The notes under the pieces are model-generated. The model was not told the DNA's origin. It saw nothing but the letters and a program-made list of their open reading frames with translations, and searched no databases. Made by a program: the position numbers and the translations under genes. From Treponema sp. (lineage in GTDB: Bacteria > Spirochaetota > Spirochaetia > Treponematales > Breznakiellaceae), in assembly GCA_009785215.1 (NCBI GenBank), contig WQWU01000031.1:1-32750 (forward strand): a stretch of 32,750 nt of DNA, in the 5' to 3' direction. Below, one piece after another: positions 2,047-25,640 of this stretch (position 1 is its first letter; each line of letters begins with the position of its first letter).

Positions 2047-2400
2047 ATGGCATGTGTAAAGGAAATTTTCGCTGAAAATTTAAAGAAAAACCGCCGGAAA
2101 CTTGGTATTTCGCAGGAAATACTAGCAGAAAAAGCTTGTATTTCAACCCATTATGTATCCATGATTGAAATGGCAAGGAATTTCCCAAAATCAGAAGTGA
2201 TAGAACGCCTTGCCAATGCCTTAGAGATTGAAGTCCATGAGCTATTTTTGGTGCCACAATCACCTGCAGATGAACTTAAAAAATTACATATGTCGATTAT
2301 TAATCAAATAAAACAGACTATTTCAGAATCCGTCGCATCATCAGTAGAAACCGCTTTTAAAAAACTTATCATCACAGAAGAAATCAGAAAAAAAACTTGA
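2047..2400 (+). CDS. XRE-family HTH transcriptional regulator
   Basis: 117 aa. An N-terminal Cro/C1-type HTH spans about residues 8-65 (NLKKNRRKLGISQEILAEK, then THYVSMIEMARNFP and LANALEIEVHELF), followed by an amphipathic helical tail that could mediate dimerisation. There is no strong Shine-Dalgarno before the ATG; a possible -10 (TATTAT, 2014-2019) lies upstream without a good -35. Upstream DNA contains two TATACTT half-sites (1954-1960 and 1971-1977) and the palindrome AAGTATACTT (1968-1977), a candidate operator. It lies 31 bp before the broken NYN gene on the same strand and probably controls it or the island. Target unknown. Confidence 0.85.
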   Translation: MACVKEIFAENLKKNRRKLGISQEILAEKACISTHYVSMIEMARNFPKSEVIERLANALEIEVHELFLVPQSPADELKKLHMSIINQIKQTISESVASSVETAFKKLIITEEIRKKT

Positions 2401-2427
2401 CTTTTTCTCCAAAAAATACCGTATATT
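2397..2427 (+). promoter_or_regulatory. Sigma-70-like promoter for the NYN gene
   Basis: TTGACT at 2397-2402 overlaps the stop of the XRE gene; TATATT is at 2422-2427, with a long 19-nt spacer. The -10 ends only 4 nt before the ATG at 2432, so the transcript would be leaderless or would use a downstream start such as the GTG at 2471. Confidence 0.5.
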
Positions 2428-2431
2428 ATAA

Positions 2432-3011
2432 ATGTTACCCGCAAGCACTATTGAAACACAAACCGCGCCAGTGAAAAAAAGGATCAGCGTATATATTGAC
2501 GGTTTTAACCTATATCACAGCACCCTCCAATACGCCCATCTAAACTGTCGTTGGCTTAATCTGATGGAATTATCAAAACGCCTTATCAATCCAAAAACCG
2601 AAGAAATCCAGACAGTTTATTATTTTTCCCGCTATCGCATTATGGAAACCGGATAAAGCCAAAAAGCACTTGCTTTATATTCACGCTTTGCGTACCGCAG
2701 GCGTAAAAGACATATTGGGAAAGTTCACCCTCAGAGATAGAAAATGCCCCAAATGCCTTGCTCTCTTTCAATCCCATGAAGAAAAAAAGACAGATATAAA
2801 TATCGCCATTATCTTGCTTGCTGATGCCGTGTTAGATAAATTCAACACAGCGTTAATTCTTTCTGGCGACAGTGATCTTGCTCCTGTAGCAGTAAAATTA
2901 CATCAACTCCGTCCAGGTAAAAAGCTTGGAATTATAGTCCCGCAAAACCAATCCGCAATGAACCTTAAAAAACACTCCGATTTTTTCAAAAAGATACAAG
3001 ATAGGGATTAA
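2432..3011 (+). pseudogene. NYN-domain (PIN-like) nuclease gene, frameshifted
   Basis: Two frames join into one NYN/LabA-type protein of about 190 aa. The first frame (2432-2656) gives the N-terminal strand ISVYIDGFNLYHS and ends ...YFSRYRI. From about 2644 the reading continues one frame over as WKPDKAKKHLLYIHALRT..., then CPKC, KKTDINIAIILLADAV and ILSGDSDLAPVA, stopping at 3011. The acidic residues expected of the family (YIDGFN, KKTD, SGDSD) are present on both sides, so a single indel near 2643-2644 broke an otherwise intact gene. Family members are metal-dependent RNases. Sequencing error or recoding cannot be excluded. Confidence 0.75.
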
Positions 3012-3152
3012 AAAACCCTTTTTCCCGAACAGATAACTTACAACGGTAATATAATCACTGCTCCAGCAGGATGGCTGCCGTCTAAAACCATCTCGACGCT
3101 TTAACCTCCAAACGAATCGTTGTTTAAAACCAGAATTATATTTTCTCAATAA
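3012..3152 (+). promoter_or_regulatory. Leader region before the left inverted repeat, weak promoter only
   Basis: The only promoter-like signal is a perfect TATAAT at 3050-3055 with a poor -35 (CGAACA, 3026-3031, 18-nt spacer), about 140 nt before the SIR2-STAND start. Nothing here matches the strong promoter outside the right repeat. Whether this drives real expression is uncertain. Confidence 0.3.
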
Positions 3153-3198
3153 AGGATAATTATTTATTATCAGGCAGAAATGAGAGGTTTTAATGTAT
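3153..3198 (+). repeat. Left copy of the 46-bp inverted repeat
   Basis: Identical to the reverse complement of 9888-9933. It contains a 17-bp dyad at 3155-3171 (GATAAT, 5-bp centre, ATTATC), resembling the ATAA-centre-TTAT core of XerC/D-type sites, then the RBS AGAGG at 3183-3187 and the ATG at 3193. Confidence 0.9.
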
Positions 3199-6100
3199 GT
3201 TTATAATAGTACAGATCATAATCAGACAGGAGCATTTTTAAGATTAATAAATGCTCTACGTCAAGCAAAGAGTCATAATCGTGGATTCACAATATTTTTA
3301 GGAGCAGGGTGTTCGTTATCATCATCACCAAATGATATATCAACAAGCAAAATTATTGAAAATTGTATTAGAGATAATTATAAACCAGATTATAAAAATC
3401 CAGGTTCATGGGAAGAATTATATCGAGATTTTATAAATAATGTTTGGGAACATCACGGTAAAATTGAACGACAAGAAATACTCGAGAAATATTTTTTAAA
3501 TTTAAGACCTTCAAAAGGATATCTTTATTTAAGGAATTTAGTCGAACAAGGTTATATAACAAATATAGTGACAACAAATTTTGATATGCTTTTAAATAGA
3601 TCTCTTGACGGTATCGCTTATACAATTCATGTAGGCAATTTGCCACCTAGAAGAATAAATGGCGGCTCATTGATTACATTGCATAAGATTCATGGAGATA
3701 TAGAATCAGGCGAACTCATTTTTTCACCTGAAGATATTAGAAATTTGCCGCAAAAGATATGTGAAGATATAAAAGAAATATCAAAGAAATCCTGTTTGTT
3801 TTGCGGATATAGTGGTCAAGATCAAGGATTAATGAAAAACCTAGATACAAATTCCGATTACGTCGTCTACTGGGCAACACCCCAAAAGCCATTGAAAGAT
3901 GATATTTATGGTACAAAATATATATATGATTGGATTTCTGCAAGGGGATCAGAGAGTAATTTTATTTATGGAAACGAACTGGGAAAATTCGATGATTTAA
4001 TGAAAAATCTTGTAAAGGCATTGATAGAAAATGAAAATGAATTAATCTTTACAAATCAATGGGAAAAAAACACAATTAGTGAAACCATTCAAATTAATCA
4101 TCGTGTTTTTTCAATATTTCAACAATTATTGAACTGTAGTTCTTCATTACGGAATGAATATGAATGGAAAAAACAATTCCCGTTTTATTCAAAAGATTAT
4201 GAAACCACACTTAATGCCTATCTGTATTATTATTGTGAGTCTGCTTCGCTACCACCAACATTACTGCAAATTCCAGAAAATGAAATCGAAGCTTTAATTA
4301 TGGGGCTAGCTATAGAGGTGTTAGCCAGCATATCCGGTATTGATTTATCAGTTGAAAATTATATAAACAAATTAAAAACAAATTATGAGAGAAGTAATCC
4401 CAATTACTTTCCTGATAATACATTTTGGATTGCTTTAACAGCAGTATTGGTATCAATAGAAAATAATATACCTTTACAAGACAATAAGGATTTATTAGAT
4501 ATTAAGCTTCAAATGAATAGCAGTGGAAGAATGACTCTAAGTGTTAAAGAGCCAAAGCTCCATTATGTTGCTGATGTAATTTCTTTGTTGAGTATCTCTA
4601 GTTTATTTATTCCAACCTGTGAAAATGAAAGTAGCATTGATCGATATGGAGAAACTAAAATATTGCTTCAAAAACATGGGCAAACAGTATGTGTAACAGA
4701 TGATAAATTATGTTTTAAGCTCAATAAAGTTTCAAAATTTGAACTTAAAGAAATATTTGATGTGTTTTTTCACAATCTAAACGACTATCATTTAGATGAT
4801 AATGGTATGATTATTGGACCAAAAGTTAGAATCATTGCAGATCTTTCAGATAAATCAGGAAATAAGTCTGTGGCTTCTATACCAGAATATATTTATAGTC
4901 TTGAAACAAAATCAAAAAATGCTTTTCTAAAACTTAAATCTGCTTTTGAACTAGATAGAGAAAATTATGTGTTTAGTCCATTAGATGCTTCAATAGATGA
5001 GTTCGTAATATCCGATAAACTTGGTATGTTTATAATTGGTTCGAGTGGCTCTGGAAAAACTAAAGCTTTTCAGAACTTTATTCGATCTGATCTAAATTCA
5101 GAACTGATAAAATTAATAGCTTCTCCCAGAATGAGTTCATTTGAAAACACATTAGGTCTATCCGTGTTTTGGAACAATTTAGGAATCTTTAATGATGAAA
5201 AGATATTATTAGAAGAAATTAATGCGATGTTGTCAACCAGAGGTAAAAAACTTCTATTAATTATTGACGGCTTAAATGAAATAGATGGAGGTATGGAAAT
5301 CTGTATTTTACACTATAAGTCAATTACAGAAACAATTGATAAGTTAAGTATGCTTGGCATCAAAACTATAAAAATATTGGTTGCTTGTAGAGATCATACT
5401 TTTTTGGATTATTGTGAAAGTACAAATCTATATCCTTCATCTGAACTGTGTTATTGTAGTATAGCAAAAGATCATATAACTCCATACTATCAAATTCAAC
5501 CGCTAACATTTGAGCAACAATTACAATTTGTTAATGTTTATTTTGATGATCCCATAAAAAAGAAAGCATTTGAATTGGATTTGAAAACAAATCGTAACAT
5601 CAGCAAAATCTTCAACCAGCCTTATCTTATTGCAGTTGCTGGAAAATACTATGCTGCAAAAGAGAATGAAACTGTGATTTCTACACAGCAGGAAATATTT
5701 AAGTTCTATACAGAACAAATGTTAAAACGATTGGGAAATCACTCATCAATAAACACTGCTAGAAAAATAATAAATGCTTATTTTGATTTACTGATCCATT
5801 CTAACCGCTTCGGTCGTCGGATAACACCTTTTACATTACTTGCCCGTATTACGAAAGAAGATGATAATGAGCTTTTTGTAGAAATTTTAAATCAACTATG
5901 TGATATAAATGTTTTTACTAACACCGCACATAGTGAAGAATATATAAGATTCACACATGACCGCATAGAAGAGTATTTTTTATGTGATTACCTCTATGCA
6001 AGTGCAAATAATACTGAAGTCTTGAAAAAGGCTTTTGAAATAGCTGGTACCGATCCTGTTTTTTACTCAGCAGCAATGGAATATTTCCGTAAATTGGCAC

Positions 6101-7377
6101 GCCAAGGACATTTTGAACAAATAATTGAAAATTATTGTTTTCTATATAATGACAGCCTAGACATACTGCCATGCATTATAGTCAGTTGTTTAGAGTTTAT
6201 TTCTGAAAATGGGTTAAAGCAATTATTTTTCACTTTGGAAAAAAGCAATGTTGATGCTGATGTCTTTATAATATTTTTATTTAGTGGATTAAAGCAAGCA
6301 ATATACCGAAATGATATAAGTTATCCAGAGGTAATGATAACCGCTTATCGTACACTATCTAGCTTATTTCCTGTATTATCTAAATATAGCAAATATTTTT
6401 ACTATATATCATCAGGATTTTACCTAATTCAAAAAGGAGATATAAAACTTGCAGAATATTTTTGTGATTTTGCCCTCTCTGAAAAAACTGACGATCAGTA
6501 TCTTGCACATTTAGTTGATTTTCAGAAAGCAGTTATTCTAAGGCATAAAACACAATTAAATGAAGCTATTAATAAATTTTCTAACTTATATAATTATTTT
6601 TCAAGAAATGGAAAATGGGATAGTGCAGTAGAATGTATTCTCGAATGGGGTGGAGTTCTAAGAGAAAAAACAAAATTTATAAACGCTCTTGAGGTATATG
6701 ATAAAATAGATGTGGAAAAACTTGAAGTATCACTCGCAATACAAATTAAAATTCATAGAAAAAAAGGAACTATATATAAAAATATCATGCAACAATTACG
6801 GAAAGAATATTTATCCAGCACTGATAACAACCAAGAACTTTTAGAAAAAATACGGCAATATTATAATAATGCCATCGCTGAGTATGAATCCGCAAAAAAG
6901 AAATCATATAATTCATTTGATATGATTGAAAAAATGAAAATTATTTCTGAGCAAGCAGAAGTTTGTTTAAAATTCTCTGACATTGATTCTGCGCAAATGT
7001 ATAGAGCAGAATTATTCTTATCTGAACACGACAGGCTTATTGCTTTATTTCCAATTCCCGATGCTCAGATTATTCAGTTACGATTGAAATCAAAATTTGA
7101 AGAAATGAAAGGGAACTTGAAAGAAGCCATGATTATTCTCGAAGATGCACGTGAAATAGCTGTGAATGGAGCAAAAATCTTCCGTGTTTTTGAGGTTGAT
7201 TATCAGTTTGGTAGATTAGTTGAGAAGCATAAGGAGAATTTATCTCCTGTGGATTTGCAGAAAGGACTTGATTCGCTTGAAAAAGCTATTGCATCAAGTC
7301 AAGACAAGGACAGCCAATATGTAAAGAATTGTATAGAATCGAAAAATAATCTTAAGATATATATTGCTAAAAAATAG
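3193..7377 (+). CDS. SIR2-STAND (NACHT) protein with C-terminal helical repeats, Avs-like
   Basis: 1394 aa. The N-terminal SIR2-like domain (about 30-270) has the nucleotide-binding GAGCS (37-41), TTNFD (127-131, Asn129) and KIHGD (165-169, His167), so NAD-binding and catalytic positions look intact. The STAND/NACHT ATPase has Walker A GSSGSGKT (616-623) and a Walker B-like LLLIIDGLNEID (687-698). The last 350 residues are helical with a TPR-like pattern, the usual sensor part. Known SIR2-STAND proteins (Avs5 type) sense phage proteins and deplete NAD+, killing the infected cell; this role is inferred. RBS AGAGG lies 5 nt before the ATG, inside the inverted repeat. No strong promoter precedes it in this orientation. 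Very AT-rich. Confidence 0.85.
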   Translation: MYVYNSTDHNQTGAFLRLINALRQAKSHNRGFTIFLGAGCSLSSSPNDISTSKIIENCIRDNYKPDYKNPGSWEELYRDFINNVWEHHGKIERQEILEKYFLNLRPSKGYLYLRNLVEQGYITNIVTTNFDMLLNRSLDGIAYTIHVGNLPPRRINGGSLITLHKIHGDIESGELIFSPEDIRNLPQKICEDIKEISKKSCLFCGYSGQDQGLMKNLDTNSDYVVYWATPQKPLKDDIYGTKYIYDWISARGSESNFIYGNELGKFDDLMKNLVKALIENENELIFTNQWEKNTISETIQINHRVFSIFQQLLNCSSSLRNEYEWKKQFPFYSKDYETTLNAYLYYYCESASLPPTLLQIPENEIEALIMGLAIEVLASISGIDLSVENYINKLKTNYERSNPNYFPDNTFWIALTAVLVSIENNIPLQDNKDLLDIKLQMNSSGRMTLSVKEPKLHYVADVISLLSISSLFIPTCENESSIDRYGETKILLQKHGQTVCVTDDKLCFKLNKVSKFELKEIFDVFFHNLNDYHLDDNGMIIGPKVRIIADLSDKSGNKSVASIPEYIYSLETKSKNAFLKLKSAFELDRENYVFSPLDASIDEFVISDKLGMFIIGSSGSGKTKAFQNFIRSDLNSELIKLIASPRMSSFENTLGLSVFWNNLGIFNDEKILLEEINAMLSTRGKKLLLIIDGLNEIDGGMEICILHYKSITETIDKLSMLGIKTIKILVACRDHTFLDYCESTNLYPSSELCYCSIAKDHITPYYQIQPLTFEQQLQFVNVYFDDPIKKKAFELDLKTNRNISKIFNQPYLIAVAGKYYAAKENETVISTQQEIFKFYTEQMLKRLGNHSSINTARKIINAYFDLLIHSNRFGRRITPFTLLARITKEDDNELFVEILNQLCDINVFTNTAHSEEYIRFTHDRIEEYFLCDYLYASANNTEVLKKAFEIAGTDPVFYSAAMEYFRKLARQGHFEQIIENYCFLYNDSLDILPCIIVSCLEFISENGLKQLFFTLEKSNVDADVFIIFLFSGLKQAIYRNDISYPEVMITAYRTLSSLFPVLSKYSKYFYYISSGFYLIQKGDIKLAEYFCDFALSEKTDDQYLAHLVDFQKAVILRHKTQLNEAINKFSNLYNYFSRNGKWDSAVECILEWGGVLREKTKFINALEVYDKIDVEKLEVSLAIQIKIHRKKGTIYKNIMQQLRKEYLSSTDNNQELLEKIRQYYNNAIAEYESAKKKSYNSFDMIEKMKIISEQAEVCLKFSDIDSAQMYRAELFLSEHDRLIALFPIPDAQIIQLRLKSKFEEMKGNLKEAMIILEDAREIAVNGAKIFRVFEVDYQFGRLVEKHKENLSPVDLQKGLDSLEKAIASSQDKDSQYVKNCIESKNNLKIYIAKK

Positions 7378-7387
7378 TTTAACTATT
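7373..7387. repeat. Palindrome at the convergent stop codons
   Basis: AATAGTT, T, AACTATT: a perfect 7-bp-arm palindrome containing both TAG stops (7375-7377 on plus, 7383-7385 on minus). It is too AT-rich and short to be a convincing terminator. Confidence 0.4.
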
Positions 7388-8291
7388 CTAAATCTATCAA
7401 TGTTTCTTTGATTTTTTCTTGTAAACAAATAATATTATTAAAATCATTTATTTTATAATAGTACGGTAGATCTGACACATAATAATAAAGCTGATAGATT
7501 AATTCTTTAACTGATGGGATATGTCCAATTTTTTGAAAATAACAGTTTTCAACATGAGACCATAAATTCCTAAAAAACAATGTGTTTTGTGAAAATCTCA
7601 TTTTGGCTCTTATCAATTCGTGAAACATGTCTCCAAAACGTGCAAATTCAAAATCCACTAGACTTATACTGGTAGTTTCTTTATCAAAAATAATATTTTG
7701 TGGTTTTAAATCAAAATGAAGAAAAGAGGGAGTTATGTTTATCCAATAATATTCATATAAATGAATGTTTTTTATTGTTTTTGATATATAATTTGCAAAA
7801 TTAATATCGTATGTACCAATTGTCCGAATATGACGTTGCATGTGTGTTTCTAGCATATCAAGGTATGTTTGATAACTATCCCCAATAAAGCTATGGAATT
7901 TATGTCCTTTCAGATTATGTAGTTCATATAAACAGGAAGATATTTTTTGTGTAAGTAAAGGCATATATTTCTCCAATTCGTCTGTTGAGTATTTTTCAAG
8001 ACTTTTCCCCGGAAGAAAAGATTCAATCAAATAGAGAGATTCTGGAGGACCATCTATCTTTGCTTCAAGAATATCTGCACCAAGTTTACTGCCCTGTTTT
8101 TTAAGATACTCAAGAGCGTTATATTCACGTATGATTGCATAGGGATTAAAGGATGAAGATAATCTGACTTTATAATTACAAATACCTTCCGACACCAAAA
8201 AACAAGAAGGATATGCATCATTAGAGTATATACTTTCCTGAAGCTCAATTAATTTATTTTGAAAAAAAGGCAGTTTGTTTATATTTATCAT
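7383..8291 (-). CDS. APH/choline-kinase-fold phosphotransferase
   Basis: 302 aa. The C-lobe has the Brenner-type motif HFDLKPQN (192-199) and the metal-binding DFE (213-215, within VDFEFARFGD), as in aminoglycoside phosphotransferase and choline/homoserine kinase families. The N-lobe has RxYNALEYL after a weak Lys-containing strand. It is a soluble small-molecule or protein kinase; the substrate cannot be read from sequence. The ATG lies 2 bp after the stop of the ATP-grasp gene, so the two are translated from one mRNA and probably act in one pathway. A resistance role is possible but the partner argues for biosynthesis or modification. Confidence 0.8.
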   Translation of the reverse strand: MININKLPFFQNKLIELQESIYSNDAYPSCFLVSEGICNYKVRLSSSFNPYAIIREYNALEYLKKQGSKLGADILEAKIDGPPESLYLIESFLPGKSLEKYSTDELEKYMPLLTQKISSCLYELHNLKGHKFHSFIGDSYQTYLDMLETHMQRHIRTIGTYDINFANYISKTIKNIHLYEYYWINITPSFLHFDLKPQNIIFDKETTSISLVDFEFARFGDMFHELIRAKMRFSQNTLFFRNLWSHVENCYFQKIGHIPSVKELIYQLYYYVSDLPYYYKINDFNNIICLQEKIKETLIDLE

Positions 8292-8293
8292 AT

Positions 8294-9886
8294 TTATCTT
8301 TTTAACATTGATAATGTCAAACCTCGTGGCGTTGGTAATAAAATACGATCTATTTTTCCCTTACTATATAAATACTCAACTGTATCAAACACTGAATGAT
8401 TTTGCTTCCTATAGGAACTGTCATGCCAAACTATAATTGACTTTAAGTTTAAATAAGGATAAAAATGTTCAAATTCCTGACCTCGTATATCTCTCTTTGA
8501 ATCTAGAAAAAGAATATCGATTGTCTCATTTGGTATGTAAGTCAGACTGTTTTTGTTTATAACCTCTACTGGGTACTGAGAGAAAAGCTTTTGCGCTTGT
8601 TTTGATAAATTCTCATCTATTTCTACTGTTACTATTTTACCAAATCCATTTTGCCGTAATCCTTCAGCAAACGCTACTGTTGAGCTACCTTTGTATGTTC
8701 CTGTTTCCAGAATAAACTTTGGCTTGGTTACTTGTGTTAATGTTTTCAAAAAACAATGTACTTCTGTTTCTGAACTTATTCTATCATTCATTGAAAAAAG
8801 ATAAGGATGTGAGCAATTATCTGTAGGACCACTGCATTCTGGACAAGTATCAACAGCGTTAGGATGATTAATTTGATAAATTATTTCTTGAGGTATACTT
8901 CTAATTAATGGCATTGGCAATCGACTTGGTTTACCTGAAGCTATTTGTCCGAAATGAAACGCGCATAAGTATAATGCGATAGTTTGTTCTTTTTTCATAC
9001 CAAATTTTATTTGCCACTCCCAAGAAAAACTATTACCCGGTACAGGGCTTGTATTAGCTTCTAGCAAATAATAGGTGTCATCTAAAATAAAATCGAAACG
9101 AGCAATATCTTTCATGGCAAAATGATGAAAAAGGGTTTTAGCGTGGTATTCTAATCTTTGTCGTATTGTCTCATCTTCTTCTATTGCAAAAGCGAATGAG
9201 CGTTTGGCTAACGGTAGTTCTTTCTGCTTTTTGCAATTAATTTTTATATCATTGTTGATTTTATATTGTAGTTTTGATACAGAACAGGCAATACTATTAT
9301 TATTCCCTAGAACCGATACAGTGTATTCTTGCCCATCAGTTACAAATTTTTCAATTAGCACTTCATGTAAAAAAGTAAAATCTTGAAAAAGCAGTCGAAT
9401 TCTTTCCGTTAGTTGTTCCTTTTTATAAACAATACTATCTTCTGATATCCCCATCGAAGCATGAAGAGTATTTGGCTTGACAATAAGAGGATATAAAGAA
9501 ATTGAATCCCAGTTAAAACAATTATTAAAAAAAGCGGTTCTTGTTATTATCCAATTTTGAAGCCCAATACCTGATTTCTTACTAGTCAAATATTTGTCAG
9601 CTATGAATAATTGTGTAATATAAGAATTGCCTATCATGGGTATGTTTTTTTGTTCCAAAGTCTTAGCCGGATCATATGTCATTTCACTATTAGTGATAGT
9701 CCTTCGCTTCACATGTATATATGCACAATCGAAAAAATTATTATTTATTAATCTCAATAATTCTATTTCTGTTGGATCTATGCTTAGAGTAATAAAAATT
9801 TTATATTTTTCTAGATATACGATTTGCTCATTAAGAGCAGTCATATCACCCTCAACAGATGATGATAGAATTAATAAATTATACAT
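8294..9886 (-). CDS. ATP-grasp ligase fused to class I methyltransferase-like domain
   Basis: 530 aa in two parts. Residues about 80-310 are an ATP-grasp fold like D-Ala-D-Ala ligase: PLIVKP, ASMGIS, ARFDF (262-266) and the metal/ATP-binding EANTSP (276-281). A short Cys-rich linker follows (C348, C351, C358). Residues about 375-530 are a Rossmann SAM-dependent methyltransferase-like domain with motif I FILETGTYKGSS and later TVEID, ILFLDSKRD and IVWHDSS. I infer a ligase joining a carboxylate to an amine, followed by methylation or another SAM-linked step; product unknown. The repeat supplies an RBS 5 nt before an ATG at 9893, but that frame stops after four codons (MYNV), and the real frame starts at the overlapping ATG 9886. 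Confidence 0.8.
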   Translation of the reverse strand: MYNLLILSSSVEGDMTALNEQIVYLEKYKIFITLSIDPTEIELLRLINNNFFDCAYIHVKRRTITNSEMTYDPAKTLEQKNIPMIGNSYITQLFIADKYLTSKKSGIGLQNWIITRTAFFNNCFNWDSISLYPLIVKPNTLHASMGISEDSIVYKKEQLTERIRLLFQDFTFLHEVLIEKFVTDGQEYTVSVLGNNNSIACSVSKLQYKINNDIKINCKKQKELPLAKRSFAFAIEEDETIRQRLEYHAKTLFHHFAMKDIARFDFILDDTYYLLEANTSPVPGNSFSWEWQIKFGMKKEQTIALYLCAFHFGQIASGKPSRLPMPLIRSIPQEIIYQINHPNAVDTCPECSGPTDNCSHPYLFSMNDRISSETEVHCFLKTLTQVTKPKFILETGTYKGSSTVAFAEGLRQNGFGKIVTVEIDENLSKQAQKLFSQYPVEVINKNSLTYIPNETIDILFLDSKRDIRGQEFEHFYPYLNLKSIIVWHDSSYRKQNHSVFDTVEYLYSKGKIDRILLPTPRGLTLSMLKR

Positions 9887-9887
9887 T

Positions 9888-9933
9888 ATACATTAAAACC
9901 TCTCATTTCTGCCTGATAATAAATAATTATCCT
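9888..9933 (-). repeat. Right copy of the 46-bp inverted repeat
   Basis: Perfect reverse complement of 3153-3198. It carries the same dyad core (9915-9931), the RBS and an ATG at 9893-9891. Just inside the repeat the two copies diverge; this side has one extra base relative to the left, which puts the shared ATG out of frame with the downstream gene. Confidence 0.9.
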
Positions 9934-9948
9934 GTATTTGCTATCCTA

Positions 9949-9977
9949 ATATTATCAAGAAATATCAAAAAAGTCAA
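9949..9977 (-). promoter_or_regulatory. Strong sigma-70 promoter reading into the inverted repeat
   Basis: On the minus strand TTGACT (9972-9977) and TAATAT (9949-9954) are separated by 17 nt. It starts 17 bp after the recombinase stop codon and would initiate near 9942, just outside the repeat, giving a leader of about 50 nt into the ATP-grasp gene. It is the best promoter in the island and lies outside the proposed invertible segment. Confidence 0.75.
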
Positions 9978-9993
9978 CAAAATACAAAAACCA

Positions 9994-10914
9994 TCATATT
10001 TTAACAGAAATCCTATTCCTCGGATGCTTATCAGTCAAAATCTGCCGCTGTTTCTCCATAGCCACCCGCGTATAAATCTGTGTGGTTACTATAGAACTAT
10101 GCCCCAACATATGCTGAATATAGCGAATATCCACGTCCTCTTCAAGCAAAAGCGTCGCAAAAGAGTGCCTGAACATATGCGGCGTTATATTTTGAACAAT
10201 ATTTACCTTGGCGCAAAGCCGCTTAATCAAAAAACGGACAGATTGCTCAGAAATACGAGATGAAAGCCTGTTAACAAAAAAACACCCGGCATTATTAATA
10301 TTTACAACATTTTCTTCTAAATAACGCTGGAGAATAGAAATAACTTCCGGGTTTCCAAGCTGCAATATTCGTTCTTTTTTGCCTTTTCCCATAATTCGAA
10401 TATTGCCGTTATTCAAATCAATGTTTTCGATATTAAGTAAACATAGCTCAGATACACGTATGCCAGTAGCAAATAGTAATTCAATTATCGCAATATTTCG
10501 CAGGGCAGAATTAAACGCATAAGCTGTTCGCGCCTGTTTCATCTCTTGGTATACAACAGCCAAAATATTTTCTATAACTGACAAAGAAATCGTTCTTGGC
10601 AGTACTTGCGGTTCCTGAAACTTTGTTTTAATCTTTTTCATCGGATTGTCAGTAATAATTTCTTCAAACTCAAGATAATTAAAAAAAGCGCGAATACTTG
10701 CAATTTTTCTTTTAACTGTTCTTGGTTTGTACATTTTATGCAAATATGTTATATACGCAGAAATATCCGTCTTTACAGGAATTACTTCTGCTGTAACTTG
10801 CCGTCTAAATTGTTCAAGGTCAATCGCATAAGCCTTAGTCGATTTTGCGCTTAGTTTTTTATGCTCCTTGCAATACGTTAAATAACTGTTTATCATTTGT
10901 TTCAGTGAGATCAT
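9994..10914 (-). CDS. Tyrosine recombinase (XerC/D-like)
   Basis: 306 aa, usual length for Xer-type and phase-switch recombinases. An N-terminal SAM-like core-binding domain (1-95) precedes a catalytic domain with Arg153 (ATGIRVSEL), a beta-hairpin Lys in GKGKKER (about 177-179), HMFRH (His246, Arg249), GHSS (His272) and nucleophile Tyr281 (QIYTRV): the full catalytic set. There is no integron-type insertion. It cuts and rejoins DNA at short dyads through a 3'-phosphotyrosine. The ATG follows AGGAGG. Its stop is next to the promoter and right inverted repeat, so the natural inference is that it acts on the 46-bp repeats. It could instead be a remnant integrase of the island. Confidence 0.9.
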   Translation of the reverse strand: MISLKQMINSYLTYCKEHKKLSAKSTKAYAIDLEQFRRQVTAEVIPVKTDISAYITYLHKMYKPRTVKRKIASIRAFFNYLEFEEIITDNPMKKIKTKFQEPQVLPRTISLSVIENILAVVYQEMKQARTAYAFNSALRNIAIIELLFATGIRVSELCLLNIENIDLNNGNIRIMGKGKKERILQLGNPEVISILQRYLEENVVNINNAGCFFVNRLSSRISEQSVRFLIKRLCAKVNIVQNITPHMFRHSFATLLLEEDVDIRYIQHMLGHSSIVTTQIYTRVAMEKQRQILTDKHPRNRISVKI

Positions 10915-10990: not shown

Positions 10991-11959
10991 TCAGTTCTCT
11001 TTAATCTCATACTTACTTATAATCCGTTTTTCTATATCCTCCGCAGACGGCAAAGTATCAGCTAACTCCTGCGGAACAAAATCCGATAGCTTATATTCAC
11101 TTACACCAATTGGCTTGTTAATATCACGCAGAGCATATTCGGCAGTCAGTTTGTCCCTCTCCTTGCAAAGCAAAATACCAATTGATGGATTGTCGGATTC
11201 ATGCCGGAGCATATCATCAACAGCAGAAAGATAGAAATTCAATTTGCCTGTATATTCAGGCTTAAACTCAGTATTTTTAAGCTCGATGACAACATAGAAA
11301 CGAAGTTTCGTATTCCAAAACAACAAATCAAGATAATAATCCTTTCCGCTTATTTCAAGATGATATTGATTACCGATAAATGCAAACCCTGTTCCCAATT
11401 CCATAATAGTCTTGGCAATATTGGCAACAAGTTCCTGTTCAATTTCCCGCTCGATAATTCCTTCACGTTGTTCCACAAAATCGAACACATACGGATTTTT
11501 TAAAGTTTCCGTCGCAAGATTGCTCTGCGGTTTCGGAAGCTGTATTTCATAGTTTGCCGCTTTTTCTCCCAACGCCTGCCGTTGATAAGTCTTTGAACCG
11601 ATATAATATTCAAGCGATTTTGTTTTATCAAAAAGGTAAGTATTATGCGACCATGTCAAAAGTGCAGACACTGTCTGCACTTTTTCCTCATTTACTACTA
11701 TTTCTGCAAATTTTCTCATATATCGTAGATTTCTCACAGAATAGCCCTTGGCAGTCGGAAACTCCAGCTTAATATCACGAGCAAGGTTTTCGATAAATTT
11801 CGCCCCATATTTGGTGTTTTCAATAATAGTCCTGCCAATATTCCAAAACAGTATAATTTGCTCCTGGTTCACGCCTAAAACAGCCCTGTACTGCGCAGCT
11901 TTTATTTGGTTTTTGATATTCTCCAGAATTTGAAAATATTCATTGTTGTTTATTAACAT
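10991..11959 (-). CDS. DUF1016 / YhcG-type PD-(D/E)XK nuclease
   Basis: 322 aa from the preferred ATG at 11959, which has GGAGG 10 nt upstream; an in-frame GTG at 11998 would add 13 residues encoded by a palindrome. The N-terminal DUF1016_N part contains FWNIGRTIIE, then YSVRNLRYMRKFAE and LTWSHNTYL. The C-terminal nuclease core has FAFIGNQYHLEI, DYYLDLLFWN and FYVVIELKN, the acidic and Lys residues of a PD-(D/E)XK site. Members are found in defence islands and near restriction genes; the precise role is unsettled. Same strand as and 76 bp upstream of the recombinase, so co-transcription is possible. Confidence 0.85.
   Translation of the reverse strand: MLINNNEYFQILENIKNQIKAAQYRAVLGVNQEQIILFWNIGRTIIENTKYGAKFIENLARDIKLEFPTAKGYSVRNLRYMRKFAEIVVNEEKVQTVSALLTWSHNTYLFDKTKSLEYYIGSKTYQRQALGEKAANYEIQLPKPQSNLATETLKNPYVFDFVEQREGIIEREIEQELVANIAKTIMELGTGFAFIGNQYHLEISGKDYYLDLLFWNTKLRFYVVIELKNTEFKPEYTGKLNFYLSAVDDMLRHESDNPSIGILLCKERDKLTAEYALRDINKPIGVSEYKLSDFVPQELADTLPSAEDIEKRIISKYEIKEN
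11658..11684. repeat. 27-bp perfect palindrome inside the DUF1016 gene
   Basis: 13-bp arms (AAAAGTGCAGACA / TGTCTGCACTTTT) around a single C. It encodes the segment KVQTVSAL of the nuclease. A near-identical palindrome lies upstream of the same gene. Confidence 0.9.
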
Positions 11960-11975
11960 TCCAGATGTTCCTCCC

Positions 11976-12002
11976 AAAAGTGCCGACACTGTTGGCACTT
12001 TT
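11976..12002. repeat. 27-bp palindrome upstream of the DUF1016 gene
   Basis: Arms AAAAGTGCCGACA / TGTTGGCACTTTT around a C, with one mismatched pair. Same design as 11658-11684, 318 bp away. It sits in the 5' leader just before the GGAGG, so it could be an operator or an mRNA hairpin. Confidence 0.85.
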
Positions 12003-12144
12003 CAAAATTCTTAAATTTCCCAATTTTTTGCAAAAGCCAGTATTTAAACTGACTTTTTCCTTATTTTCTTAGTCTATAGTAAAAAAACAGCTATTTTCAA
12101 GACCAGAATTTAACACCCAAAAATACTAACATTCTGCAATAATA

Positions 12145-12173
12145 TTGACATACCCTATTAAATAGGGCATGAT
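12145..12173 (+). promoter_or_regulatory. Promoter with operator filling its spacer
   Basis: TTGACA (12145-12150) and CATGAT (12168-12173) with a 17-nt spacer. The palindrome CCCTATTAAATAGGG (12153-12167) occupies almost the whole spacer, a typical design for autorepression by the first gene product, here the HTH protein. Confidence 0.75.
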
Positions 12174-12196
12174 GCAAAAGAACAGGAGAGTGCAAA

Positions 12197-12499
12197 ATGA
12201 ATGTTTACAAAAGCATAACGAAAGGTCTAAACGAAGCCGTTGATTATCAACAAGGAAAAATCAAAGTCCGAAAAACCAGAATAACTATAAAACCAGTTGA
12301 AACATTCAACACCGATGACATTAAGCAAATCCGCCAAAGAACCGGATTAAGCCAGGTAATTTTTGCTGGTTCAATGGGGGTTTCTACAAAAACAGTAGAA
12401 GCATGGGAAAACGGCAGAAACAAGCCCGATGGAGCATCTAGGCGTTTGCTTGAGATTGTCAGGGATGATCCTGCGTTTTTGGCAAGATTTCAATTATAA
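12197..12499 (+). CDS. HTH antitoxin-like regulator (HigA2/NadS type)
   Basis: 100 aa. A 40-residue N-terminal extension precedes a Cro/C1 HTH (FNTDDIKQIRQRTGLSQ, FAGSMGVSTKTVEAWENGR, LLEIVRDDPAFLARF), the layout of HigA/NadS antitoxins that normally pair with RelE-fold toxins. Here the partner is an Abi_C protein starting 18 bp downstream. AGGAG lies 8 nt before the ATG. The palindrome in its promoter suggests it represses its own operon. Confidence 0.85.
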   Translation: MNVYKSITKGLNEAVDYQQGKIKVRKTRITIKPVETFNTDDIKQIRQRTGLSQVIFAGSMGVSTKTVEAWENGRNKPDGASRRLLEIVRDDPAFLARFQL

Positions 12500-12517
12500 T
12501 AATAATATGGGAATAAA

Positions 12518-13474
12518 ATGATGAAAGATAATCGAATCCAAAAAATTGATTTAATTTTAGATGATTTATTATCAGGAATAGAATATTACACAGTAATGGA
12601 TACTGATAGTTTTTTTTCAACTGGCAGTTTATCGTCAAAAAGAGAACTTGTTTTTGTAGATAATATTTACAAGCAGATATACAATGAATACCCAGATAAA
12701 TATAAAAGAATTTTTTCTATTTTCCATCAAAATATAAATTCTTTATTTAATTTTATGAATCAAAAAATGGATAATAACAGACATTTCAATGCTAATGAAA
12801 GTCGTGAATTAATTGAAATCATTTCAAAAATAAATGATTTGAATTTTAATCTAAAAAAAGAAGGCATAGAAATAATCATTGAAAATTACTACAAAAAAAT
12901 AATTGATGTATGTAATAATTTTTTAAGTAGTTCTGGTGGTAGTAGAATACCTGAAGAATTAAATAAAATAAACATTATTAAATATGAACCCATATTTTTT
13001 ATAAATAACAGTTCTGCAATGACAACAAAACAACAAGCTGCGTCTATAAAGCTAGAGTTTGATAATAAATATATGCAACAGCAAATTGAACAAATGGTGG
13101 AATCTATAGAAAAACATCCATCTGATGCTATAGGAAAAGCAAAAGAACTAATTGAATCTTGCTGTAAAGCTATTTTAACAAAAAATGAAAATATTGGTGA
13201 TTTAGATTCATTAGATATAAATGCTCTTATAAAAAAAGTAAAAGAAAAATTAAAATTAGAATCTGAGCATCCATCAATTAAACAGATTATTGGCGGACTT
13301 TCTGGCGTAGCATTAGGTATTGCGCAATTACGGAATGCGAAAGGAACAGGACACGGAAAAAATGCTGTTAAGTTCAAAGAACCAAGTATAATTGAAGCAA
13401 GGTTGTCAGTAGACAGTGCAATTGCATTAGTTCATTTTTTTTGGAATTTAAATAAAGAAAAAACTAAAATTTAA
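12518..13474 (+). CDS. Abortive-infection protein with Abi_C domain
   Basis: 318 aa, very AT-rich. The N-terminal 170 residues are helical and unrecognised. Residues about 185-315 match the abortive infection C-terminus family: HPSDAIGKAKELIESCCKAI, then IKQIIGGLSGVALGIAQLRN, GTGHGK and ARLSVDSAIALVHFFW. The conserved RNxxGxGHG element is intact. Members occur in lactococcal-type Abi systems and in stand-alone defence genes; the mechanism is not known. It starts at ATG 12518 (or 12521) after GGGAA and shares an operon with the upstream HTH gene, which may be its antitoxin or repressor. Confidence 0.8.
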   Translation: MMKDNRIQKIDLILDDLLSGIEYYTVMDTDSFFSTGSLSSKRELVFVDNIYKQIYNEYPDKYKRIFSIFHQNINSLFNFMNQKMDNNRHFNANESRELIEIISKINDLNFNLKKEGIEIIIENYYKKIIDVCNNFLSSSGGSRIPEELNKINIIKYEPIFFINNSSAMTTKQQAASIKLEFDNKYMQQQIEQMVESIEKHPSDAIGKAKELIESCCKAILTKNENIGDLDSLDINALIKKVKEKLKLESEHPSIKQIIGGLSGVALGIAQLRNAKGTGHGKNAVKFKEPSIIEARLSVDSAIALVHFFWNLNKEKTKI

Positions 13475-24268: not shown

Positions 24269-24587
24269 GCGGGAGGCGCAAAGGACGCGGGGGCGTAGGG
24301 TTGCTAAGAGCTCACACAAAGACACCAAGGCACGGAGGACGCGGGGGAAGAATTTTTAGAGTGTTGGTCACCTATGGTTTACTGCATTCTCCAGATTCCA
24401 TTCCAGTTTCCTTGACCAGTTCCTCTGCCGCCGCTGATCACAATAATGCCATTTGAAAATAAAAAAGAATTGGATGTTATTTTTCGCAATAATTGATTAA
24501 AGCAAGATCGCCAGATAGCGACTTTTTTGCGCAAAAAACGAAAAAGTGGTAATTGATACCTTGGCTATCGCTATGAAGGTAACTCTG
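24269..24587. other. Repeat-rich intergenic region
   Basis: No protein recognised. It holds a CACGGAGGACGCGG-type dispersed repeat (24309-24363, with a related stretch at 24270-24300), the left 50-bp direct repeat (24489-24538) and, directly after it, a GTGGTAATTGATACC motif (24546-24560) shared with the palindromic element at 20246-20345. Confidence 0.6.
24489..24538 (+). repeat. Left copy of a 50-bp direct repeat
   Basis: Identical to 25567-25616. The two copies flank the nucleotidyltransferase gene pair. Here only half of the terminator stem seen at the right copy is present. Confidence 0.9.
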
Positions 24588-25566: not shown

Positions 25567-25616
25567 ATAATTGATTAAAGCAAGATCGCCAGATAGCGAC
25601 TTTTTTGCGCAAAAAA
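25567..25616 (+). repeat. Right copy of the 50-bp direct repeat
   Basis: Identical to 24489-24538, 1078 bp apart. It includes the left arm of a terminator and the palindrome TTTTTTGCGCAAAAAA. Confidence 0.9.
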
Positions 25617-25640
25617 AATCGCTATCTGGCGATCTTTTTT
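25582..25640 (+). terminator. Rho-independent terminator
   Basis: Perfect 18-bp stem (25582-25599 pairs with 25619-25636, core GATCGCCAGATAGCGA) followed by a T run to 25640. It ends the nucleotidyltransferase transcript just before the next gene. Confidence 0.85.

Follow-up and report, generated by a model that had tools for sequence, protein, structure and literature searches.

A candidate recombinase-driven inversion switch placing a SIR2-STAND gene or an ATP-grasp/kinase unit behind one fixed promoter in Treponema sp., with related loci carrying other gene pairs

We analysed a stretch of 32,750 nt, called here the window, which corresponds to positions 1-32,750 of the forward strand of contig WQWU01000031.1 (GCA_009785215.1, Treponema sp., Breznakiellaceae) and belongs to a metagenome-assembled genome (MAG) of 1.9 Mb. 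It contains a 6.8-kb segment bounded by an inverted repeat, with a promoter and a tyrosine recombinase gene just outside one end (Table 1). A first-pass annotation had read this arrangement as an inversion switch choosing between a SIR2-STAND defence protein and an ATP-grasp/kinase operon. A repeat scan of the window defined two arms lying 6.7 kb apart, 51 nt long at 98% identity and perfect over 46 nt (3153-3198 and 9888-9933); we estimate the chance of a perfect 46-mer inverted pair in 32.75 kb at about 1e-17. As described by the first-pass annotation, the repeat encloses two convergent units, whose stops are 5 bp apart, and carries the dyad GATAAT-N5-ATTATC, which occurs exactly twice in the window, once per arm (0.27 expected with one mismatch allowed). 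Elsewhere in the 1.9-Mb MAG, neither a further copy of the core or repeat nor an inverted join was found with up to 3 mismatches. The annotation had also placed a ribosome binding site and the first ATG of each unit in the repeat. This holds for the GAGAGG leader, present in both arms, and for the ATG of the SIR2 gene, but the ATP-grasp open reading frame (ORF) starts at 9886, 2 bp beyond the right repeat, where the repeat ATG opens a frame of four codons followed by a stop (ATG TAT AAT GTA TAA). The arms thus have in common a leader and a Shine-Dalgarno-like GAGAGG, and not both start codons.

Table 1. Features of the putative switch in the window, and Clostridia loci with the promoter at the other end
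Feature	Position or loci	Strand	Evidence or content
Left (outer) repeat arm	3148..3198	+	core GATAATTATTTATTATC at 3155-3171; contains leader GAGAGG and SIR2-gene ATG
SIR2-STAND protein, TPR-like helical C-terminus, 1394 aa	3193..7377	+	Pfam SIR2_2 8.8e-10, AAA_22 5.2e-5
Small-molecule kinase, APH/choline-kinase fold, 302 aa, second gene of the ATP-grasp unit	7383..8291	-	Pfam APH 1.9e-8, Choline_kinase 1.1e-7
ATP-grasp (D-Ala-D-Ala-ligase-like) fused to SAM methyltransferase, 530 aa	8294..9886	-	Pfam Dala_Dala_lig_C 1.1e-17, Methyltransf_24 2.4e-12
Right (recombinase-side) repeat arm	9888..9938	-	core at 9915-9931
Outside promoter TTGACT-17-TAATAT, TG before -10, pointing into the segment	9949..9977	-	motif score against shuffled flanks
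Accessory XerC/D-like tyrosine recombinase, 306 aa, presumed invertase	9994..10914	-	Pfam Phage_integrase 5.9e-43
Promoter at the end opposite the recombinase (Clostridia)	L063, L066, L081, L086, L089, L097, L100, L108, L237, L240, L241		

The left-hand unit is a single gene. Its product has the motifs GAGCS (residue 37), TTNFD (127) and KIHG (165) and a Walker A motif, GSSGSGKT (616); its NAD-binding and catalytic motifs, together with the Pfam SIR2_2 match, predict the activity of a SIR2 NADase effector. A scan with PADLOC 2023 matched it to the SIR2 protein of pAgo-type systems (2.5e-17), to Aga, to PDC-S65 (SIR2 part) and weakly to mad8, and no Avs model of that scan matched. The label "Avs-like" given to this protein therefore applies to the architecture (SIR2, STAND and a helical C-terminal part) and not beyond it. 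Homologues of the SIR2-STAND protein were found neither in 393 Spirochaetota and 391 Clostridia genomes nor in plasmids or viral contigs. The ATP-grasp protein of the opposite unit also matched D-Ala-D-Ala ligases in PDB and NCBIfam, and no relatives of it were detected in viral contigs.

The recombinase is complete and lies beside the promoter on the same strand, in agreement with the first-pass annotation. It retains all six catalytic residues (R153, K177, H246, R249, H272 and Y281), which are invariant in a six-sequence alignment. A housekeeping XerC/XerD identity was ruled out by scores below the curated cut-offs (XerD 242 bits against 329.6, XerC 240.5 against 335.15) and by a tree position outside the Xer clade; the housekeeping Xer pair of this genome is on contig C18. 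An integron integrase was likewise rejected (integrase_gron, 94.8 bits against a cut-off of 265). In the tree, the family of recombinases related to that of the window separates from the housekeeping Xer proteins with 100/100 support, a split to be read with care given the midpoint root and long branches, and the loci having a local site are scattered across the family. The closest orthologues come from MAGs named Treponema, apparently from termite guts by their isolate names, and recombinases at 50-60% identity are frequent in Clostridia.

A strong promoter outside the right repeat, with none comparable at the left, had been noted as well, and scoring bore this out: the right flank scored 10.2, a value reached by 1-4% of shuffled flanks, whereas the best score of the left flank was 3.3 (p about 0.8). 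In the sequenced orientation, the ATP-grasp/kinase unit is thus predicted to be ON, and the SIR2-STAND gene, which points away from the promoter, is predicted to be OFF. The other three Treponema loci having both repeat arms showed a promoter with 17-bp spacing at the same location, likewise confined to the recombinase side. In Clostridia, the recombinase stop often overlaps the site and the promoter lies beyond the opposite end (shuffle p <=0.03; loci in Table 1). No locus had strong promoters on both sides, and several had no standout promoter on either side.

The layout of the window recurs well beyond it. In 31 loci, from termite-gut Treponema, Clostridia and one viral contig, GATAAY-N5-RTTATC stands behind a recombinase gene and recurs in inverted form 1.9-6.8 kb off, and the pair nearly always encloses two convergent units. 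Among 83 testable loci of the recombinase family, 42 have a core at most 200 bp past the recombinase stop; other windows in these loci give an expectation of 0.9. The 31 intact inverted pairs have 25 different 5-bp spacers, and in all 31 the spacer is identical between the arms, an identity that is partly by construction because the mate search required an identical core. Such matching fits the requirement of tyrosine recombinases for strand exchange. Several repeats of the family are just 17-23 bp long, that is, the bare site. Three Treponema genomes (G007, G025 and G035) follow one order: recombinase stop, promoter with 17-bp spacing, core (C/T)AGGATAAYTATTTATTATC, and then a gene that differs from one genome to the next; an inverted core lies 2.7-5 kb away and the two convergent genes enclosed both start at a repeat. 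The pairs are a pentapeptide protein and an aminotransferase, two ORFs (364 and 562 aa) that matched no Pfam model, and an Mrr-like STAND protein and a carbamoyltransferase. We had considered these Treponema loci as integron-like cassette capture, as the gene after the site always differs, and dropped this reading upon finding an inverted second core in four genomes. Complete plasmids of Aliarcobacter and of Streptococcus salivarius/equinus have the same layout; those of Aliarcobacter pair ATP-grasp and YbaK with a STAND-like protein, the repeat being seen in L266 only. Switches of this kind, holding different gene pairs, thus apparently exist in at least three phyla: Spirochaetota, Bacillota and Campylobacterota.

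Some members of the family depart from this layout. The G062 recombinase (52% identical) has no recognisable site behind it. In five loci (L050, L051, L053, L061 and L065), a long palindrome lies just past the recombinase stop (e.g. CCAACACAGGATAATCAATTGATTATCCTGTGTTGG in L051) and no second arm was found; these palindromes are possibly emptied sites with joined outer halves, or terminators. In addition, two MAGs have a break point in common: contigs G023:C16 (L029) and G035:C6 (L030) both start around codon 172-177 of the recombinase gene.

Related gene pairs were found in opposite orientations. The pairs of L118 and L251 share 75-81% amino acid identity and are inverted over 4917 nt at 78% nucleotide identity while the recombinase is collinear. 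Their spacers are reverse complements of each other, which indicates that transfer, in addition to orientation, relates these two loci. Relative to the recombinase, L030 and L240 (Spirochaetota and Bacillota, 69-74% amino acid identity) are also opposite, as are L030/L252, L028/L241, L074/L123, and L082 compared with L073, L086 and L244. The side of the promoter also differs between phyla: taking the recombinase as reference, L030 (Treponema) and L063 (Oscillospiraceae) have opposite orientations, and taking the promoter as reference they agree. Comparisons across phyla are therefore weaker evidence, and those within Clostridia (L118/L251; L082 with L073, L086 and L244) appear cleaner. A search of related genomes for the opposite orientation, which the first-pass annotation had proposed as a check, thus succeeded for other pairs of the family but not for the pair of the window, which the relatives lack.

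Assembly breaks at the repeats gave a further indication. If both joins were present in the DNA pool, the repeat would be expected to terminate flank contigs at its inner end and segment contigs at its outer end. Among 80 contigs of the family, 24 terminate no more than 300 bp past the recombinase (1.7 expected), and about ten of these lie with their ends at most 3 nt from the end of the core. For the isolate Desulfocucumis palustris NAW-5, the segment is a separate contig of 5036 bp with a 19-bp repeat at both ends, and the contig with the recombinase breaks off precisely where that repeat has its inner end. Similarly, in G070 a 55-bp repeat marks contig ends, with C40 beginning at its outer end and C2 finishing at its inner one; in G073 and G075 two flanks are interrupted at, or close to, one site; and in Treponema G021 contigs C183 and C41 terminate at the same base of the same repeat. 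Contig G022:C29, whose recombinase is 90% identical to that of the window, continues for about 100 bp beyond its core and then stops. Contig G021:C141 (L259) is 83% identical to the outer flank of the window, has the repeat of G022 and stops inside or at the end of it; it comes from a MAG with 6% contamination and may be a stray contig of a G022-like organism. We regard this pattern of contig ends as strong but indirect evidence for the coexistence of both orientations. MAG assemblies do generally break at repeats, and the k-mer sizes used for these assemblies are not known to us, so that the ends could be ordinary repeat-induced breaks carrying no sign of two orientations. This explanation seems very improbable: repeats of 19-55 bp are shorter than the usual final k-mers, flank contigs end at the inner and segment contigs at the outer repeat end, as expected with both joins, and the same architecture is intact in complete plasmids and large contigs.

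Several observations weigh against an inversion switch. The window contig is unbroken and no inverted junction was seen in its own MAG; no relative has the pair of the window, hence its orientation had no comparison; and in two pairs of near-identical complete Streptococcus plasmids the segment has one orientation. The HTH/NYN genes at 2047-3011 (+) could read through into the SIR2 gene in the OFF orientation. About 44 of the 98 family recombinases outside plasmids were scored without a local site, and L094 and L078 are not purely convergent. The failure to see an inverted junction, the agreement of the Streptococcus plasmids and the possible read-through would all suit a static locus, in which an old duplication or insertion would have left the repeats behind and expression of both units would be constant. 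Such a locus would, however, have to account for a perfect 46-bp repeat, for cores and spacers identical within loci across phyla, for gene pairs found in both orientations and for contigs ending at 19-55-bp repeats in isolates as well as MAGs, and we judge it to be a poor candidate.

The cargo of the family follows a pattern. According to Pfam, about two thirds of the examined pairs oppose a STAND, SIR2, TIR, TPR or pentapeptide protein to a tailoring enzyme: ATP-grasp, radical SAM (that of L118 being a relative of lysine-2,3-aminomutase), carbamoyltransferase, aminotransferase, glycosyltransferase or nucleotidyltransferase. Either class, immune-type/pentapeptide or enzyme, can occupy the promoter side. 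Several unknowns depart from this pattern, as do L074/L123, where TIR faces DUF4062 plus a kinase-like protein, and L272, where a GNAT faces a methyltransferase. In L085 (10963-13189, Hungatella hathewayi WAL-18680), a further exception, a SIR2-STALD and a TIR protein, the domain types of Thoeris ThsA and ThsB, are convergent inside the inverted pair; exclusive expression, if real, would be odd for a system needing both ThsA- and ThsB-type proteins. The idea of a switch toggling an Avs-like gene therefore stands as to the switch layout, but the layout is not specific to such a gene, since the platform carries many different pairs.

These cassettes also appear to move. On the Streptococcus megaplasmids (L263, L264, L265, L269 and L270), flanks 90-100% identical lead up to the same repeat, and three unrelated convergent pairs lie between the arms; cassette exchange thus very probably occurs besides inversion. 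The recombinase might even act mainly in capturing and swapping gene pairs at a chromosomal or plasmid docking site, in the manner of an integron, with inversion as a by-product. The megaplasmids and the pairs common to different phyla (such as L030/L240) speak for this alternative, which we consider possible while doubting it. On the other side, the one-sided promoter, the units that each start at a repeat and the widespread contig breaks indicate that orientation matters, and shared pairs are found in loci with different spacers, so that many exchanges are not simply site-specific. Exchange and inversion are compatible and both may hold.

We consider it highly probable, from these comparisons of sequence, that recombinase-mediated inversion links the fixed promoter to one of the two convergent units. 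That a flip would connect the outside promoter to either unit, as first proposed, is supported by the relatives through the conserved site, the spacers matching within loci, the single promoter, the opposite orientations and the assembly breaks. By comparison with these relatives, inversion is very likely in the genome of the window itself. In the proposed mechanism, the recombinase would bind the GATAAT-N5-ATTATC core in each arm, and strand exchange within the 5-bp spacer would invert the 6.8-kb segment, while the promoter, between the recombinase gene and the right arm, would stay put. In the sequenced orientation it would drive the ATP-grasp/methyltransferase and kinase genes, and beyond the left arm the SIR2-STAND gene lacks a promoter of its own; in the inverted state, the fixed promoter would drive the SIR2-STAND gene. 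As the promoter would serve one unit per orientation, a population would split into enzyme-ON and immune-ON cells. Across the family, the recombinase, the site and one outside promoter would be retained and the convergent gene pair swapped. For the window, we infer catalysis at the repeat, switching in Treponema sp. and exclusive expression of the two units.

The mechanism is of a known kind. Inversion is tied to alternative flagellin expression in the Hin system (PMC8987985), and in Ureaplasma two genes are alternated by inversion (PMC3047005). The Ureaplasma elements (UU172/UU171 and mba/UU376) concern surface antigens in one genus, with no modular family swapping immune-type and enzyme pairs (PMC3047005). 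PsrA, a tyrosine recombinase of Streptococcus pneumoniae, inverts hsdS (PMC7096588, PMC4948785); here too coding DNA is flipped between inverted repeats, but this alters the specificity subunit of one restriction enzyme, whereas in the window-type switch an outside promoter would select whole convergent genes. Invertible promoters (invertons) are common in gut bacteria (PMC11892184). Together with the RecV switches of C. difficile, they resemble the present loci in the recombinase, the short inverted repeats, phase variation and occurrence in Clostridia; they mostly flip a small regulatory segment, whereas here the promoter is fixed and a coding segment of 2-7 kb would flip. Inverton group 139 of PMC11892184, from Clostridia and with a tyrosine recombinase nearby, was compared with our family by description only. 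Integrons share a tyrosine recombinase beside the site, a fixed promoter and exchanged genes. They differ in that our family has two inverted identical short sites bounding one pair; no cassette array was seen in the repeat scan of the window, which included no search aimed at attC sites. Avs5 and other SIR2/STAND antiphage proteins resemble the SIR2-STAND protein in combining a SIR2 effector, a STAND NTPase and helical repeats; the window protein differs in matching none of the PADLOC Avs models. In the literature we found no description of a modular convergent-pair switch with immune-type proteins and enzymes, although overlap with the programmed-inversion catalogue of Milman et al. 2023 is possible. 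The modular family with swapped cargo therefore looks new.

The surroundings of the switch in the window include other defence-type genes. A YhcG-family PDDEXK nuclease (PADLOC PDC-S02), an HTH gene and an Abi_C protein are encoded at 10991-13474, which places the switch in a region resembling a defence island. By the left repeat, an NYN-domain gene (2432-3011, PADLOC HEC-09-like) has a frameshift, its halves (2432 to about 2655 and 2670-3011) lying in different frames; this reflects either a broken gene or an assembly error. A 213-bp unit is repeated six times in tandem near the contig start (204-1455); the copies, each of about 71 aa and 67-71% alike, probably encode a repetitive protein. 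Finally, an exact direct repeat of 50 nt is found at 24489-24538 and 25567-25616, with a spacing of 1078 bp; an inverted 25-mer (25612-25636) makes a hairpin with the second copy.

An immune protein by which a bacterium kills or arrests its own cell comes at a cost, and how populations keep such proteins without the cost in every cell is an open question. The most likely use of the putative switch is bet-hedging, with an intracellular immune effector as one option and a surface or small-molecule modification as the other. A far-reaching version is conceivable, which we think rather unlikely: pan-bacterial, exchangeable cassettes of two genes, one for an NLR-like immune protein and one for a specific partner enzyme, that would be inherited together and never co-expressed in one cell, each clone keeping two incompatible defence states. 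A possible reason for such incompatibility would be that the immune protein is triggered by, or directed against, the product of the enzyme. Cultured hosts with family loci (Hungatella hathewayi, Desulfocucumis palustris, Streptococcus salivarius and Aliarcobacter) allow tests, and the recombinase combined with GATAAY-N5-RTTATC can serve as a search key for new immune gene families plus their partner enzymes. It would also follow that assemblies show or lose such genes according to orientation. If true, a heritable coin-flip between an immune protein and a modifying enzyme, built as a reusable cassette, would directly answer the question of cost.

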